Below are positions 2,609-30,463 of a stretch of DNA of 40,220 nt, piece by piece. The notes beneath the pieces are model-generated. The model searched no databases. It was not told the origin of the DNA and worked only from the letters and a program-made list of their open reading frames with translations. The stretch covers positions 1 through 40,220 of the forward strand of contig CAITEF010000119.1 in assembly GCA_903891315.1 (NCBI GenBank), given 5' to 3'. This DNA is from an uncultured Rhodospirillales bacterium (lineage in GTDB: Bacteria; Pseudomonadota; Alphaproteobacteria; Acetobacterales; Acetobacteraceae). The position numbers were made by a program, and so were the translations under genes. Positions within the stretch are counted from its first letter, which is position 1. Each line of letters begins with the position of its first letter.

Positions 2609-2656
2609 TATATAATGCATTATTCTATTACGACGCAAGCGATATGATGCATTATT
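2609..2656 (-). promoter_or_regulatory. Putative boxC promoter with two TGCA palindromes
   Basis: The stretch carries two copies of the minus-strand sequence AATAATGCAT, at 2615-2624 and 2647-2656, exactly 32 bases (about three helical turns) apart. The first is part of a perfect 12-base palindrome, ATAATGCATTAT, at 2612-2623; the second is a near-palindrome at 2644-2655. On the minus strand a possible -35 (TTGCGT, 2633-2638) and -10 (TTATAT, 2610-2615, 17-base spacer) fall between and over the two copies. BoxR/BzdR-type repressors of benzoyl-CoA pathways are known to bind TGCA-containing repeats, so this is probably the operator of such a regulator. The outer copy overlaps the stop codon of the upstream hydrolase gene. 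The repeats are seen directly; the promoter and the regulator are inferred. Confidence 0.55.
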
Positions 2657-3431
2657 GTTCATCTCGACGCAGGCGATTGACGAAATCCTGCACGGTGGCA
2701 AGCACGGTTTCGGTGGCATCGGCATGCGGCGCGTGGCTGTCGCCCGGCAGGATTAACGTCTCCACCGGGCAATAGGTCTCGCGCTGGATTGCGGCGATCT
2801 GGCCGAGCGTGCCGTAAGGATCGCCGTCGTCTTGGATCGCGAGGATCGGCACCCGGATATGGGCGAGGTCGGGGATCAAATCGAGGGCTGCGGGATAGCC
2901 GGGGTCGAGCCAGGCGTTGAGCCATCCGAGGAAGGCGTTGTCGACATCGCGATGATGCCGCGCGAGACGCTCGCGCAGATTGCCTTCTTGGTAGCGCTCG
3001 CCGGTCACGGCGATGGCGGCGAGGCCGTGCGGTTCGGTGAAGAAATGCGGGGCTTCGAGGATGATGCCGAGCAGGTCGAAATCCTGGATCGATCCTGCAT
3101 AGGCGGCGGCGATGCTGGCCCCGTCGGAATGGCCCAACAGGATTTTCCGCTGAATTCCGGCGGCAGCGACCACGCGCGGCAACACATCGCGGCCCTCGCG
3201 GGCGAGGTAGTCGAGGGGGCGCGGCAGGGCAACGGGATCTGACTGGCCGTAGCCGAGCCGGGAGAAGGCGAACACGCCGCAGCCGGTGGTCTCGGCGAGC
3301 TTTGCCGGGAAATCCCGCCACAGGCCAAGACTGCCGAGGCCTTCGTGGAGCAGGACGATGGTGGGGGCAGCGTCGGCGGAGGGGCCCCACCATGCGGTGT
3401 CGATGGAACCCTCAGGCAGAACAATCGTCAT
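2652..3431 (-). CDS. Alpha/beta hydrolase in the box cluster
   Basis: This is an alpha/beta-hydrolase-fold protein of about 259 residues. It shows the oxyanion region HEGLGSLGLW, the nucleophile elbow GHSDGAS (Ser), an acid in the AIQDDGDPYG segment and a late His in GDSHAPH, so the triad looks complete. Proteins of this type often accompany box genes and may be thioesterases or lactone/ester hydrolases; the substrate cannot be assigned. The 5' end is unusual: the only sensible ATG (3431) is supplied by the end of a hairpin repeat, and no ribosome-binding site precedes it. The frame stays open through the repeat to a GTG at 3494, but those 21 extra residues would be entirely repeat-encoded. 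The stop codon lies inside the boxC operator region. Confidence 0.8.
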   Translation of the reverse strand: MTIVLPEGSIDTAWWGPSADAAPTIVLLHEGLGSLGLWRDFPAKLAETTGCGVFAFSRLGYGQSDPVALPRPLDYLAREGRDVLPRVVAAAGIQRKILLGHSDGASIAAAYAGSIQDFDLLGIILEAPHFFTEPHGLAAIAVTGERYQEGNLRERLARHHRDVDNAFLGWLNAWLDPGYPAALDLIPDLAHIRVPILAIQDDGDPYGTLGQIAAIQRETYCPVETLILPGDSHAPHADATETVLATVQDFVNRLRRDEQ

Positions 3432-3512
3432 TGCGAGGAGCCGCAGGCGACCTGGCAATCCAGGAATCGGCGGACGCGATTCCTCGATTGCCACGCTTCG
3501 CTCGCAATGACG
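3426..3512. repeat. Intergenic hairpin repeat (CGTCATTGCGAG family)
   Basis: This 87-base imperfect inverted repeat has outer ends CGTCATTGCGAGGAGC and GCTTCGCTCGCAATGACG, which are reverse complements apart from small differences. The inner arms GCAATCCAGGAATC and GATTCCTCGATTGC pair at 13 of 14 positions around a short loop. Sequences with these termini are a known class of dispersed intergenic repeats in several proteobacteria. It fills the gap between the benzoate-CoA ligase stop (3525) and the hydrolase and provides that gene's ATG. Confidence 0.85.
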
Positions 3513-3524
3513 GACAGAGGGCGC

Positions 3525-5108
3525 TTACTCCCCCGCATGGCTGAACGCCTCGCGCAGTTTGAACCGCTGGATCTTCCCGGTCGCCGTCTTCGGCAACTCG
3601 TCCACCACCTCCAGCCAACGCGGGTATTTCCACGCGCCGACATGCTCCTTCACCTGCGCCTTCAGGGCGGCGAGCAACTCGTCATTCATCTCCACCCCTT
3701 GCTTGAGTACGATGAACGCCATCGGCTTGAGCAGCCCTTCGGCATCCTCGCGGCCAATCACCGCGGCTTCCTGCACGGCAGAATGGGAGATCAGCGCGGT
3801 TTCCACCTCAAACGGCGAGACCCAGATGCCGCTGACTTTGAACATGTCGTCGGCGCGGCCCTGGTACTGATAGAATCCATCCTCCAACTGGATGTATTTG
3901 TCGCCGGTGCGCGTCCACTCCCCCTGAAACGTGCGGCGCGAGCGGGCGCGTTGGTTCCAATAGCCCTCCGCGGCGGACGGCCCGCGCACCAGCAATTCGC
4001 CGATCCCACCCGGCGGCAGATCGTGCTCCTGCTCATCGACAATCCGCAGATCATAGCCCGGCACCGCGACGCCGCTGGTGCCGTATTTCAAGTGTGTGGG
4101 CGAGTTGGAGACGAAGATATGCAGCATCTCGGTGCTGCCGATTCCGTCGAGAATCTCCGCCCCCACCTTCTCCGACCAGCGTTTGCCGACCTGCTCAGGC
4201 AGCGCCTCACCGGCGGAGATGCAAACCCGCAGCCGGTTCGAACCGGCACCAGGGCCAAGCGCCGGATTCGACAGCAATGCTGCATACAAGGTGGGCACAC
4301 CGCAGAAGATCGTCGGATTGTGCGCCCGCATTACCGACATCACCGAATCCGGCGTGGGCCGATCCGGCAGCAGCACCGTCGTCGCCCCCACCGACATCGG
4401 AAAGGTGATCGCGTTGCCCAATCCATAGGCGAAGAACATTTTCGCCGCCGAGAACACCACATCGTCCGCCCGGATTCCGAGCACCTGGGCGGCGTAGGTA
4501 TCCGCCGTCGCCCGGATCGCGGAATGGACGTGTTTCACCCCCTTGGGTGCCCCGGTCGAGCCGGAGGAATATAGCCAGAACGCCACGTCATCCGGGCTGG
4601 CTTGCACCGGCTCCGGCACAGCGTGGCCGTCGGCAGCGAAACGGGCGAAATTCAGGGCACCGCTTGGCAGATCGGTGGTGACGCTGCCATCCGCCTCGGC
4701 GATCAGGATCAGCCGCAGATGGCGGGCCTGGGCGAGGACATGTCCATAGGCGACCAAGCAAGCGCGCGAGATGCACAATGCCTCAGCGCGGCTGTCCTCC
4801 AGCATATAGGCGACCTGTTCGGGGGCGAGCAGCGTGTTGATCGGCACCGGCACCACGCCCGCGCGGATCGCACCCAGAAAGGCGACCGGAAAATCGATGG
4901 TGTCCTGCTGGATCATCACCATCCGCCGCTCCCGTCCTACCCCGGCCTGCCACAGCGCGCCGGCGAAGCGGGCGGAGGCATCGGCGAGACCGGCATAGGT
5001 CAAGCTGCGATGCGGATCGACGAAAACTGTGTGGTCACCACGTCCGTCCTCCAGATGCCGGTCAAGCAGCCAGATGACGGCATTGCCGTTCTCCGTCGTC
5101 GTCCCCAT
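3525..5108 (-). CDS. bclA: Benzoate-CoA ligase
   Basis: This is an acyl-adenylate-forming enzyme that activates benzoate (or a close analogue) with ATP and CoA to benzoyl-CoA, the first step of the box pathway. The protein is 527 residues. It has the AMP-binding P-loop YSSGSTGAPKG at about 180-190, the segment DGIGSTEMLHIF, and the C-terminal RADDMFKVSGIWVSP hinge and TATGKIQRFKLRE (catalytic Lys). All these match the benzoate-CoA ligase branch. I chose the ATG at 5108 because a GGGGAGA site precedes it; the frame is open further upstream, but that extension runs into operator DNA. It is the first gene of the minus-strand set ligase, hydrolase, boxC, boxB. Substrate preference among substituted benzoates cannot be read from sequence. 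Confidence 0.93.
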   Translation of the reverse strand: MGTTTENGNAVIWLLDRHLEDGRGDHTVFVDPHRSLTYAGLADASARFAGALWQAGVGRERRMVMIQQDTIDFPVAFLGAIRAGVVPVPINTLLAPEQVAYMLEDSRAEALCISRACLVAYGHVLAQARHLRLILIAEADGSVTTDLPSGALNFARFAADGHAVPEPVQASPDDVAFWLYSSGSTGAPKGVKHVHSAIRATADTYAAQVLGIRADDVVFSAAKMFFAYGLGNAITFPMSVGATTVLLPDRPTPDSVMSVMRAHNPTIFCGVPTLYAALLSNPALGPGAGSNRLRVCISAGEALPEQVGKRWSEKVGAEILDGIGSTEMLHIFVSNSPTHLKYGTSGVAVPGYDLRIVDEQEHDLPPGGIGELLVRGPSAAEGYWNQRARSRRTFQGEWTRTGDKYIQLEDGFYQYQGRADDMFKVSGIWVSPFEVETALISHSAVQEAAVIGREDAEGLLKPMAFIVLKQGVEMNDELLAALKAQVKEHVGAWKYPRWLEVVDELPKTATGKIQRFKLREAFSHAGE

Positions 5109-5173
5109 CCCGTGTCTCCCCTGCAATTCCCTGTCTGCGCAGGGATTTTTCTGCAGCCGCCAGGGAGCGACCA

Positions 5174-5187
5174 TGCAAAATTATGCA
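5174..5187. promoter_or_regulatory. TGCA-N6-TGCA operator-like site downstream of the ligase promoter
   Basis: Two TGCA tetramers (5174-5177 and 5184-5187) are separated by six bases, a ten-base period. They lie about 66 bases before the ligase start codon and downstream of the predicted transcription start. This arrangement resembles the TGCA repeats described for BzdR/BoxR-type repressors of benzoyl-CoA pathways. No such regulator gene is in the window. Confidence 0.55.
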
Positions 5188-5220
5188 GGTTTCGCGTCCA
5201 ACAGCCCCATCACCGGAAGT

Positions 5221-5249
5221 ATTATGCAGCATAAGAAATGGTGATGCAA
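5221..5249 (-). promoter_or_regulatory. Predicted benzoate-CoA ligase promoter with TGCA sites in both hexamers
   Basis: On the minus strand TTGCAT (5244-5249) and CATAAT (5221-5226) are separated by exactly 17 bases, which fits a sigma-70 promoter. A TGCA lies inside the -35 (5245-5248) and another overlaps the -10 (5225-5228). The latter is within the palindrome TTATGCAGCATAA. Binding there would block RNA polymerase directly. The leader to the ATG at 5108 would be about 105 bases. Confidence 0.6.
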
Positions 5250-5284
5250 GAACCGCAGCCCGCTTCGCGCTAAGCTGATGCGGG

Positions 5285-6172
5285 CTACGGTTCTATCGAA
5301 CGCCGGAAATCCCTTGGAGTCTGGCCGGTCTGCCTTTTGAAGAAGCGGCAGAAATAGGCGGGGTCCTCGAAGCCGAGGTCCCAGGACAGTTTTGAGATCG
5401 GCGCGGCAATATAGGTCAGATGGCGACATGCCTCGCGCGTCAGCCTCTCCTGCACGATCTCCAGGGGCAACCGTCCGGTTTCACTGCGCACCAGTCGATT
5501 CAGCCGCTCCGGCGTCAGGCCAAGTGCGTCTGCGTAGCTGGTCATTGGCCAATGTTCGCGGAAATGCGCTTCGACCAGCACGAGAAACCGGGTGAACAAT
5601 TTCTGCCGCGCCCGCCCGATCCCCTGCCGCCCGCGCGCCGCCCGGTCGGCCAGCAGCCACACCGCTGCCCGCGCCAGCCAGACCGGCACCGGCGAGCCTG
5701 CCGAGCCGGGGGCGGCGAATTCAGTGGCCAATGTGGCCATCATCAACCCGAAACGCACCGCCTCGGCCTCCTCGCCCTCAAAATCCAAAATGCGCGGCTC
5801 GGCGAATAGCTGATCGAGTGCCTCACCAGCCGCAGGCAGATCGCCCTCGATCATCGCCGCCGGATCGAAGGTGAGCACATGGCCATCGGTCTGCTCGGAG
5901 AAACGGAATTCATGCACCACGCCGGGCGGAATCGTGACCACCACCGGCCCCTGCCGCGTCTCCCGCCGCTCGTCGAGCGCAATCGTGGCAGGCCCTGAGG
6001 CCACCCAAAGCACCTGATGCAGGCCGCGATGGGTGTGCGCGTCGATCTCCCAGGCATAGAGGCTGGAGCGCTGCTGGATCGGCTCGACATGCAGCTTTTC
6101 CACCGCATTGCCGCCCTGCTCGCCATAGAGCCGGAAGCTGGGTGGTGGGGCGGTGCGAAGGGAGCGGCTCAT
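5285..6172 (-). CDS. AraC-family transcriptional regulator (PobR-like)
   Basis: This is a 295-residue regulator. The N-terminal half is a cupin-like sensor domain (HTHRGLHQVLWV near 47, then TIPPGVVHEF near 80). The C-terminal 100 residues carry the two AraC helix-turn-helix motifs: SYADALGLTPERLNRLVR, then a second with LGFEDPAYFCRFFKRQTG and PRDFRRS. The layout resembles PobR-type activators of hydroxybenzoate genes. It is divergent from the P450 gene across 143 bases (6173-6315), so it most likely activates the P450 set in response to an aromatic ligand; it could also act on the ligase promoter on its other side. The ligand is unknown. The start ATG at 6172 gives a complete cupin. Confidence 0.88.
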   Translation of the reverse strand: MSRSLRTAPPPSFRLYGEQGGNAVEKLHVEPIQQRSSLYAWEIDAHTHRGLHQVLWVASGPATIALDERRETRQGPVVVTIPPGVVHEFRFSEQTDGHVLTFDPAAMIEGDLPAAGEALDQLFAEPRILDFEGEEAEAVRFGLMMATLATEFAAPGSAGSPVPVWLARAAVWLLADRAARGRQGIGRARQKLFTRFLVLVEAHFREHWPMTSYADALGLTPERLNRLVRSETGRLPLEIVQERLTREACRHLTYIAAPISKLSWDLGFEDPAYFCRFFKRQTGQTPRDFRRSIEP

Positions 6173-6315
6173 ATCCAGGCTTACCCCATAACGTCAGAAA
6201 AGTGCAAGTTTTTGAACCAAGCACACATCACGCCCGCCCCGCGCATTCCGTTACATCATGCGCATGGAGCCGGGCCAAGACCCAGGCTTCCAAGCAATCT
6301 CGGGAGAGACACGCC

Positions 6316-7479
6316 ATGTTCAGCTTCGATCCCTATGACCCCTCGGTGGATGCCGACCCGTTTCCTTTCTACAAGACCCTACGCGACGAACACCCGTGCT
6401 TCTGGTCGAAACAGGCGCAAATGTGGGTGCTGTCGCGCTATGCCGACATCGTCTCGGCAGGCCAGGATTGGCAGACTTTCTCCTCGGCGAGCGGCAATCT
6501 GATGACGGAATTGCCCAACCGCGCCGGGGCCACGCTGGGCACCACCGATCCGCCACGCCATGACCGTCTGCGCGGCCTCGTCCAGCACGCCTTCATGAAG
6601 CGCAATCTGGAAAGCCTGTCCGGCCCGATCCGCGACATCGCGCGCACCACCGCCGAGACGCTGCGCGACCGTCCGAAATTCGACTTCATCCACGATTTCT
6701 CGTCGGTGTTCACCGTCCGCGTGCTGTTCGCCGCCCTCGGTCTGCCGCTCGGCAACGAGGAGACGGTGCGCGAGAAGGCGGTGCTGATGGTGCAATCCGA
6801 CCCGTCCACCCGCGCCAAAGGGCCGCAACATATCGAGGCCTATAATTGGATGCAGGACTATGCGGCCCGCGTGATCGCCGAGCGTCGCGCCAATCCGAAG
6901 GACGACCTGATCTCGCATTTCTCCGCCGCCGAGATCGATTGCGACAAGCTCGATGAGCGCGAAGTGCTGCTGACCACCACCACGCTGATCATGGCCGGCA
7001 TCGAATCACTTGGCGGCTTTATGAGCATGATGGCGCTCAACCTCGCCGATCATGTACGGGCGCGGCAGGCGGTGGTGGATCACCCGGCATTGATCGCGGA
7101 TGCCGTCGAGGAATCGCTGCGCTTCAACACCTCGGCCCAGCGGTTTCGCCGCCGATTGCAGAAAGACGTCGAACTGCACGGCCAAATGATGAAGGCGGGC
7201 GATTTCGTTTGTCTCGCCTATGGCTCGGGCAATCGCGACGACCGGCAATATCCCAACCCGGATAGCTACGACATTGCCCGCAAGCCGCGCGGCCATCTCG
7301 GTTTCGGCGGTGGCGTGCATGCCTGTCTCGGTACCTCCATCGCACGACTTGGCGTCAAGATCGCGTTTGAGGAACTGCATCAGGTGGTTCCGGTCTATCG
7401 TCGGGTGGCCGAACAACTGGCATGGATGCCGTCCTCGACCTTCCGCAGTCCGCTGCGGCTGGATTTGACGGTTCATTGA
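6316..7479 (+). CDS. Cytochrome P450
   Basis: This is a soluble bacterial P450 of 387 residues, hydroxylating or demethylating an unknown, probably aromatic, substrate with electrons from the ferredoxin and reductase encoded next. The heme-binding loop FGGGVHACLG is at 330-339 with Cys337 as thiolate ligand, and the ExxR motif is E266-S-L-R269. In the oxygen-activation helix the usual acid-Thr pair reads AGIES (Glu230, Ser231), so Ser replaces Thr. The start is the ATG at 6316, behind a GGGAGAG site at 6302-6308; the frame is open upstream, but that region looks like the divergent promoter. No membrane anchor is present. Proximity to benzoate genes suggests, but does not prove, an aromatic acid substrate. 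Confidence 0.93.
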   Translation: MFSFDPYDPSVDADPFPFYKTLRDEHPCFWSKQAQMWVLSRYADIVSAGQDWQTFSSASGNLMTELPNRAGATLGTTDPPRHDRLRGLVQHAFMKRNLESLSGPIRDIARTTAETLRDRPKFDFIHDFSSVFTVRVLFAALGLPLGNEETVREKAVLMVQSDPSTRAKGPQHIEAYNWMQDYAARVIAERRANPKDDLISHFSAAEIDCDKLDEREVLLTTTTLIMAGIESLGGFMSMMALNLADHVRARQAVVDHPALIADAVEESLRFNTSAQRFRRRLQKDVELHGQMMKAGDFVCLAYGSGNRDDRQYPNPDSYDIARKPRGHLGFGGGVHACLGTSIARLGVKIAFEELHQVVPVYRRVAEQLAWMPSSTFRSPLRLDLTVH

Positions 7480-7488
7480 GTCATAACG

Positions 7489-7580
7489 CGTCATCCTGAG
7501 GAGCGAAGCGACGTCAGAATCCAGAAGTCATAGAGCCGTCTCTACGCCTTCTGGATCGCTACGCTTCGCTCACGATGACG
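7489..7580. repeat. Intergenic hairpin repeat between P450 and ferredoxin genes
   Basis: This is an imperfect inverted repeat of 92 bases. The left end is CGTCATCCTGAGGAGCGAAGCG and the right end CGCTTCGCTCACGATGACG; the centre pairs CCAGAAG with CTTCTGG. It resembles the repeat at 3426-3512 in its CGTCAT ends and GAGCGAAGCG core but belongs to a CGTCATCCTGAG subtype. It occupies nearly all of the 120-base gap between two genes that should be co-expressed. Confidence 0.8.
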
Positions 7581-7599
7581 AGAAAAGGATGCGAAACAC

Positions 7600-7923
7600 A
7601 TGGTCAACATCGTCTTCATCGAACCCACCGGCGCCAAAATGCCGGTCAACATCAACGAAGGCTGGAGCCTGATGCAGGGTGCCACCACCGGCGGCGTGGA
7701 CGGTATTCTCGGCGAATGCGGTGGCTCCTGCGCCTGTGCCACTTGCCATTGCTATGTAGACGAATCCCGCCTCGGTGAGCTGCCGGAAGCCAGTGAAAGC
7801 GAGCTTGAAATGCTGGAGAACGTCGCCGCCGAGCGCCGCTCGAACAGTCGGCTCGCCTGCCAGATCAAGGCGGTGAACGCGCTGGACGGCCTGATCGTCA
7901 CGTTGCCGGACACCCAGGAATGA
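7600..7923 (+). CDS. [2Fe-2S] ferredoxin, putidaredoxin type
   Basis: This 107-residue ferredoxin has the vertebrate/putidaredoxin-type cluster ligands Cys40, Cys46, Cys49 and Cys87 (C-x5-C-x2-C, then a Cys 38 residues on). These sit in GECGGSCACATC and SRLACQIK. It carries single electrons from the FAD reductase to the P450. The ATG at 7600 follows an AAAAGGA site. It overlaps the reductase gene by four bases (ATGA), implying translational coupling. Extra Cys at 44 and 51 are close to the ligand loop. Confidence 0.95.
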   Translation: MVNIVFIEPTGAKMPVNINEGWSLMQGATTGGVDGILGECGGSCACATCHCYVDESRLGELPEASESELEMLENVAAERRSNSRLACQIKAVNALDGLIVTLPDTQE

Positions 7924-9104
7924 GCGACGTGCCCGGCATAGTCATCATCGGTGCCGGGCAGGCCGGTCTGCAATCGGCGGAATCGCTGCGGGCGGGCGGC
8001 TTTCAGGGCAGCATCACCCTGCTGGGCGACGAGCCCTACGGCCCCTATCATCGCCCGCCCTTGTCCAAGGCGTGGCTGTCGGGTGAGATCGAGGCGAGCC
8101 AATTGGTGATGCGCGCGCCGGAATTGCTGGCGCGCAAAGAGATCGATTTGCGCATCGGCGTTCGCGTGCACTCCATAGACCGAGCAGCACAGATGCTGCG
8201 TCTTGCTGACGGCAAGGCGCTTCCCTATGCCGGTCTCGTGCTCGCCACCGGTGCCACGCCGCGAGCGCTGCGTTTGCCCGGAGCGGACGCACCGAACGTG
8301 CTCGCCTTACGCACGCGCGATGACGGCGTGCGGATCGCCGAGGCGCTGAGCGTCTGCAAATCCCGCGCCCTGCCAGTGGTGGTGATCGGCGGCGGCTTCA
8401 TCGGCTTGGAAGTCGCCGCCACCGCCCGCAAACTCGGGCTGGAAGTCAGCGTGCTCGAAGCCACCCCCCGCCTGTGCGCCCGCGCGCTGGTGCCGATGTT
8501 GTCGGACTGGTTCGCCGAACTGCATCGCAGCCACGGAGTCGGCATTGAACTCGGGGCCAAGGTGGCGGCAATTGAAGTGTCCGACGGGCGCGCCGTCGCG
8601 GTGCGCTGTGCGGACGGCGCGGTGTTTTCCTGCGGTCTGGTTGTGGTCGGCATCGGCGTGGTGGCGAACGATCAACTCGCTTTCGCTGCCGGCTTAGAAT
8701 GCGAGGGCGGCATTGTGGTCGATGAGTGCGCCCGCACCGCCGATCCGATGATCACCGCGGCTGGCGACTGCACCGCGAGGCGTCTGCCGGATGGTGGGTT
8801 GCTGCGGCTGGAATCGGTCAACAACGCCACCGAACAGGCGAAATCCGCCGCCGCTTCCTTGCTCGGCCTGGAACGGAAATTCACCGGGACGCCGTGGTTC
8901 TGGTCCGATCAATTCGGCTGGAAATTGCAAATGGCCGGGTTGCCGGTCGGGGCCGATCGGGTGGAGCTGCGCGGCGACATGCAGGGCGACAGTTTCAGCC
9001 TCTACCATTATCGCGGCGACCAACTGGTCTCGGCGGACAGCCTCAACGCGCCCAAAGATCATCTGGCAGCGCGAAAGGAACTCGACAAAACCGCTACGCT
9101 GTAA
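7920..9104 (+). CDS. NAD(P)H-dependent ferredoxin reductase, FAD-binding
   Basis: This is a 394-residue flavoprotein of the putidaredoxin reductase family. It has the N-terminal FAD Rossmann motif IIGAGQAG (9-16), HRPPLSKAWLSG near 42, the central NAD-binding motif VIGGGFIGLE near 159, and AAGDCT near 280, which contacts the flavin. It passes electrons from NAD(P)H to the ferredoxin. It overlaps the ferredoxin stop by four bases and completes a class I P450 electron chain. Its 3' end overlaps the convergent MFS gene by 11 bases, so no terminator fits between them. Confidence 0.94.
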   Translation: MSDVPGIVIIGAGQAGLQSAESLRAGGFQGSITLLGDEPYGPYHRPPLSKAWLSGEIEASQLVMRAPELLARKEIDLRIGVRVHSIDRAAQMLRLADGKALPYAGLVLATGATPRALRLPGADAPNVLALRTRDDGVRIAEALSVCKSRALPVVVIGGGFIGLEVAATARKLGLEVSVLEATPRLCARALVPMLSDWFAELHRSHGVGIELGAKVAAIEVSDGRAVAVRCADGAVFSCGLVVVGIGVVANDQLAFAAGLECEGGIVVDECARTADPMITAAGDCTARRLPDGGLLRLESVNNATEQAKSAAASLLGLERKFTGTPWFWSDQFGWKLQMAGLPVGADRVELRGDMQGDSFSLYHYRGDQLVSADSLNAPKDHLAARKELDKTATL

Positions 9105-27441: not shown

Positions 27442-27480
27442 ACTCCATTCATCCGCAACACCGTATCCCCAGTTTGCACA

Positions 27481-29380: not shown

Positions 29381-30463
<1,083 letters not shown>

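Follow-up and report, generated by a model that had tools for sequence, protein, structure and literature searches.

Within the 40,220-nucleotide stretch of DNA that we analyzed (the window), the region upstream of the benzoate-CoA ligase gene bclA is very probably an operator region through which BoxR controls bclA and the adjoining hydrolase gene and from which benzoyl-CoA releases the repressor; the same regulon would also include boxC, boxR and a gene on contig C457. Judged from sequence, the system appears to be a dispersed BoxR regulon and an ordinary further example of a known genetic switch.

The bclA upstream region

Four genes of the box cluster lie in a row on the minus strand of the window. 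They are bclA (3525-5108), which belongs to the benzoate-CoA ligase family (TIGR02262, 733.4 bits against a cut-off of 375.25); an alpha/beta hydrolase (2652-3494; PF12697) that occupies the same place in relatives; boxC (913-2562; TIGR03222, 937 bits, cut-off 712.3); and the front part of boxB (3-869; TIGR03225, 586.5 bits, positions 1-286 of 471), which is cut by the contig end. The same four genes form this row in 17 of 24 mapped loci, with two genomes counted twice.

The gene that adjoins bclA upstream, on the same strand, is of AraC type, as a preliminary description of this DNA had stated; its nearest model is HpaA, at a score below the HpaA cut-off. A strong hairpin at the end of this gene (5250-5293, minus strand, -31.7 kcal/mol, z -6.6) probably separates it from bclA. 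The AraC-type gene, a P450 gene on the opposite strand and a ferredoxin-reductase-like gene together occupy 5285-9104. None of the three has a match in the bclA locus of a sister genome (G001), and for this reason they are perhaps an insertion beside the box cluster.

The start of bclA is likely the ATG at 5108 rather than the start of the open reading frame at 5174. This ATG has a Shine-Dalgarno-like GGGGAG, and the sister bclA begins at the matching place. With this start, the intergenic stretch comprises 176 bases (5109-5284), and the TGCA sites discussed below would therefore be non-coding. A promoter of the form TTGCAT-N17-CATAAT had been proposed here. Its hexamers (TTGCAT at 5249-5244 and CATAAT at 5226-5221, minus strand), the N17 spacing and the overlap with TGCA words are all present at 5221-5249, but the match to sigma-70 is weak: by hand count, 8 of 12 bases agree with the consensus, and a scan needing at least 9 of 12 matches listed no promoter in 4900-5500. 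From these hexamers, transcription would start near 5214.

The preliminary description had also listed TGCA at 5174, 5184, 5225 and 5245, with offsets of 10, 41 and 20, and had singled out a TGCA-N6-TGCA pair. All four positions and offsets are exact, and the pair at 5174/5184 reads TGCA-AAATTA-TGCA. Two further TGCA in the same intergenic stretch, at 5122-5125 and 5152-5155 in the bclA leader, had been omitted. Against dinucleotide shuffles, six TGCA in the 176 bases are more than expected (P 0.00135, shuffle mean 1.65), as is any TGCA-N6-TGCA pair (P 0.0127), and helical phasing gives P 0.0072 for all six. On the scale of the whole window the picture is more sober. Among 200 shuffled windows, 18 have six TGCA within 127 bases and 132 have four within 76 bases, and TGCA is not enriched across the 40 kb (184 found vs 217 expected). 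Taken alone, the cluster and its phasing are only modestly unusual. Because shuffled windows so often hold four TGCA in 76 bases, the cluster by itself is unconvincing, and we dropped its density as an argument for an operator.

Comparison is more telling. BoxR and BzdR bind TGCA repeats spaced by 1, 6 or 15 bases, with ATGCACTATAGTGCAT as the main form (PMC6449761, cited here and below from excerpts). At bclA there is a TGCA-N6-TGCA palindrome with an A/T-rich centre, whose core (5174-5187) lies in a predicted full BoxR-type operator at 5171-5190. The 5225-5245 pair has an N16 spacing, outside the published values; N15 pairs are absent from the whole window, and its single N1 pair lies at 30190, with none at the bclA promoter. 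The TGCA at 5225-5228, 41 bases from 5184, overlaps the predicted -10, and that at 5245-5248 falls within the predicted -35. The matrix described below gives at best 4.9 bits near 5225 and does not list 5245, so these two would be half-sites at most.

Specificity of the predicted operator motif

A pattern of TGCA-N6-TGCA with any centre proved too loose to serve as an operator pattern and was rejected: it occurs at 47 places in the assembly, compared with 21 for the reversed control. The 4.58-Mb assembly contains TGCANWWWWNTGCA just twice, in the 5174/5184 pair and at a site on C457, and its control pattern not at all. Among 18 relatives searched, 10 have a TGCANWWWWNTGCA-type site and 4 have control matches. 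Part of the relatives' sites are at box genes, two on contig C241 of G006 and one on contig C116 of G017.

We built a matrix of 20 positions from 25 sites in 19 box loci, with the bacterium's own genome and the sister genome left out. Over the window it finds three sites above 9 bits (20.3, 18.6 and 17.7), the third of which is the predicted bclA operator; the next score is 7.4, and the best scores in 20 shuffled windows lie between 5.4 and 13.9. Applied to held-out box loci, the matrix gives 76 matches of at least 12 bits, overlapping ones included, in 32 of 60 loci (L134 and L142 share one stretch, as do L048 and L140), compared with 1 to 8 matches for six column-permuted matrices. The other 28 held-out loci have no match of 12 bits. 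A single match was found in 21 control loci (L027-L047), which are fewer and shorter (72 kb vs 839 kb held-out) and only presumed to be without BoxR; one of them, L036, contains a diverged BoxR-like frame interrupted by stops and gave no match. Two sites of 11.0 bits in the bacterium's own genome were set aside, as they have no known proximity to box genes and may be due to chance: C667:4446, inside an open reading frame that we take to be an aldolase gene, and C3:17426.

Operator spacings in the relatives cluster near about three, four and five helical turns. There are 41 cases of neighbouring matrix matches 25-61 bases apart, all at 29-33, 39-42 or 50-53 bases, although these are not independent events because training sites and related genomes are included.

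Plain TGCA words upstream of bclA were counted as well. We used 81 upstream regions, from 80 named loci and pieces of further relatives; the window, L100, L125, L134 (usable upstream missing) and L133 (a piece without the ligase) were dropped. A TGCA pair at offset 10 is present in 11 of these regions, which are not independent since several come from Rhodobacteraceae genera, compared with a mean of 1.05 for the rest of the offsets between 4 and 60. Next come offsets 41 and 51, with 5 regions each; an exact offset-10 pair is lacking in the remaining 70 regions. The other 15 palindromic 4-mers show no peak at 10, though some have one at a different offset (TCGA at 108, in 14 loci). Counted across the full 80 loci, TGCA pairs that have an A/T core occur 25 times at offset 10 and 8 times at offset 9, and no other offset exceeds 3; if the core is disregarded, offset 9 leads with 79 pairs vs 50 at offset 10.

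A BoxR-type regulator, further predicted operators and their conservation

The preliminary description had read the sites as BoxR/BzdR operators, had suggested looking beyond the window for a boxR-like gene, and had named a genome lacking boxR as grounds for dropping this reading; the genome does have one. When the Pfam SKI profile was run over the whole assembly, two places matched, one of which is such a gene. At C330:2985-3887, a protein of about 301 residues combines an N-terminal XRE-type HTH (HTH_3, 47.8 bits) with a C-terminal shikimate-kinase-like domain (SKI, 140.2 bits), both above cut-off, and it passes the model NF006015 ('anaerobic benzoate catabolism transcriptional regulator') at 392.6 bits against a cut-off of 204. 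It is 79% identical to a protein of G001 and 74% to one of another relative, G027, and every one of the six HTH residues invariant across 51 BoxR-type proteins from 88 loci is present in it; some of these loci may share one species. The second place, on C545, has a frame that runs on into what is presumably an aroB part. Thus, a regulator inferred from the TGCA sites was then located on another contig, in the same assembly as boxB, boxC and bclA. Together with the selection of the N6 pair by a matrix from other genomes and its retention in the sister, the presence of this protein supports the BoxR/BzdR reading.

The two other matrix sites in the window are both predicted BoxR-type operators before boxC, operator 1 at 2645-2664 (20.3 bits) and operator 2 at 2603-2622 (18.6 bits), 42 bases away. 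This pair (2603-2664), which lies between the hydrolase gene and boxC and does not appear in the preliminary description, suggests that BoxR controls a further promoter inside the box gene row. Operator 2 contains ATGCATTATAT, which the assembly has twice, in the upstream regions of boxC and boxR; the upstream region of boxR has a matrix site of 13.7 bits. Sites of at least 12 bits before boxC are also present in L050, L051, L062, G027, G009, G022, G017 and G006. Because such sites are commoner before boxC than before bclA, the operators of boxC are possibly older than the rest of the system.

The C457 site scores 22.0 bits (C457:5197; 5197-5210 of L129, G000:C457) and ends 27 bases ahead of a gene for a branched-chain-type substrate-binding protein. 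This gene adjoins a gentisate-dioxygenase-like gene and a MarR-type gene.

Comparison with the sister genome shows that most of these sites are kept. At bclA, the N6 pair and the -35-side TTGCAT (as CTTGCAT) are retained, the TGCA at 5225 is shifted by 3 bases, and those at 5122 and 5152 are lost as TGCA. Upstream of boxC, the sister retains each of the three aligned TGCA, of which two are intergenic and 32 bases apart, and it has both predicted operators, again separated by 42 bases. Upstream of boxR, AAATGCATTATATCTCA is identical within a poorly conserved region, and the sister's only TGCANWWWWNTGCA-type site precedes the orthologue of the C457 gene (89% identical), inside 28 identical bases. 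Each alignment with the sister is weak when considered singly (P 0.049 for bclA, 0.34 for boxR and 0.041 for boxC).

The proposal that all four sites lie on about the same face of the helix fared less well. In the window, the phasing of the four has P 0.056. The sister's four TGCA have spacings of 17, 42 and 10, and because of these and the 3-base shift the four do not keep strictly to one face there.

Two further observations concern the same comparison. In the bclA leader, CCCTGCGCAGACAGGG at 5129-5144 is identical in the sister while its surroundings differ; it is terminator-like on the plus strand, and the folding of this stretch is barely stronger than that of shuffled sequences (z -1.6). 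The sister also has an extra ATGCATTATAT at 3706-3716 of L148 (G001:C10:116706). It lies at, or close to, the beginning of a frame that we take to encode an acyl-CoA hydrolase/transferase, a possible extra regulon member.

Proposed control of the box genes and alternative readings

We propose that a BoxR dimer encoded on C330 binds 5174-5187, about 33 bases downstream of the predicted transcription start, with weaker contacts probable at the half-sites in the -10 and -35. Bound BoxR would block transcription of bclA, and with it of the hydrolase gene, and benzoyl-CoA, the product of the BclA ligase, would release it. The boxC and boxB genes would be controlled again via the operator pair before boxC, and the same BoxR would also act at its own gene and before the C457 transporter gene.

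Binding, repression and the role of benzoyl-CoA are inferred from BoxR and BzdR of other bacteria. In Azoarcus sp. CIB, benzoyl-CoA relieves the repression by BzdR of the PN promoter, whose operators fall into three regions: OR1, covering -32 to +31, and OR2 and OR3 with TGCA(N6)TGCA (PMC6678401, likewise cited from excerpts). As at PN, the TGCA palindromes of the bclA region overlap the promoter and lie downstream of the start, and the N6 form is that of OR2 and OR3. Unlike PN as described in those excerpts, the bclA promoter has no N15 or N1 pair, and the genes are aerobic box genes rather than bzd genes. The sites also resemble the BoxR operators of Betaproteobacteria, as far as these are covered by the excerpts of PMC6449761, in the TGCA-N6-TGCA form with an A/T-rich centre, in the occurrence of multiple sites three to five turns apart, and in the location of sites at bclA, on the boxC side, at boxR and at ABC transporter genes. 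They differ in that three separate contigs carry boxR, the box cluster and the transporter gene in this assembly, bclA has one full operator, and an operator pair stands before boxC inside the bclA-hydrolase-boxC-boxB row. The whole-turn spacing of full sites is found in the 42 bases before boxC; bclA has its one full site plus half-sites whose phasing is not strict in the sister.

How much of the bclA region takes part is less certain. The chances are about even that the N6 pair is the sole operator, and that the TGCA at 5225 and 5245 are mere parts of the promoter hexamers with a meaningless four-site phasing. The difference between 17.7 bits for the pair and at best 4.9 near 5225, the shifted word and altered spacings in the sister, and the phasing P value of the four sites all fit this simpler reading, whereas the recurrence of the 41-base spacing in relatives, the retention of TTGCAT in the sister and the extent of OR1 across PN in the excerpted account (PMC6678401) argue for a role of the promoter words. 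A more elaborate version of the BoxR model, which we consider doubtful, holds that the regulon is scattered over bclA, an internal boxC promoter, boxR and the transporter gene, and that one full operator and phased -10/-35 half-sites across four turns at bclA form a reduced version of the wrapped BzdR/PN complex.

Chance, in the form of incidental TGCA words in an A/T-rich promoter, is a very unlikely explanation. The frequency of such clusters in shuffled windows and the weak P values of single sister alignments are what it would predict, but it does not account for the rarity of TGCANWWWWNTGCA in the genome, the matrix results in the window and the held-out loci, or the conservation in the sister. 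It is also very unlikely that the AraC-type regulator next door acts through these words as BenR/XylS-like sites (TGCA-N6-GGNTA): its gene is the immediate upstream neighbour on the same strand, and the TGCA word and the link to benzoate metabolism are shared with BenR/XylS sites (TGCA in these per the excerpts of PMC6449761 and PMC6678401), but TGCA-N6-GGNTA occurs just once in the window, at 27464, and not at the bclA promoter, the sites are kept in the sister though its bclA locus has no relative of the AraC gene, the protein is nearest to HpaA and under that model's cut-off, and the strong hairpin stands between the two genes.

In the open-access literature searched, including the accessible part of PMC10803450, we recognized no description of BoxR operators from Alphaproteobacteria, Acetobacteraceae or Rhodobacteraceae. 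Control of aerobic benzoyl-CoA degradation by BoxR and TGCA sites, which the excerpted work (PMC6449761) charted for Betaproteobacteria, would be extended to an alphaproteobacterial family, and the motif, having been tested on held-out loci, is usable for predicting regulons in uncultured genomes.
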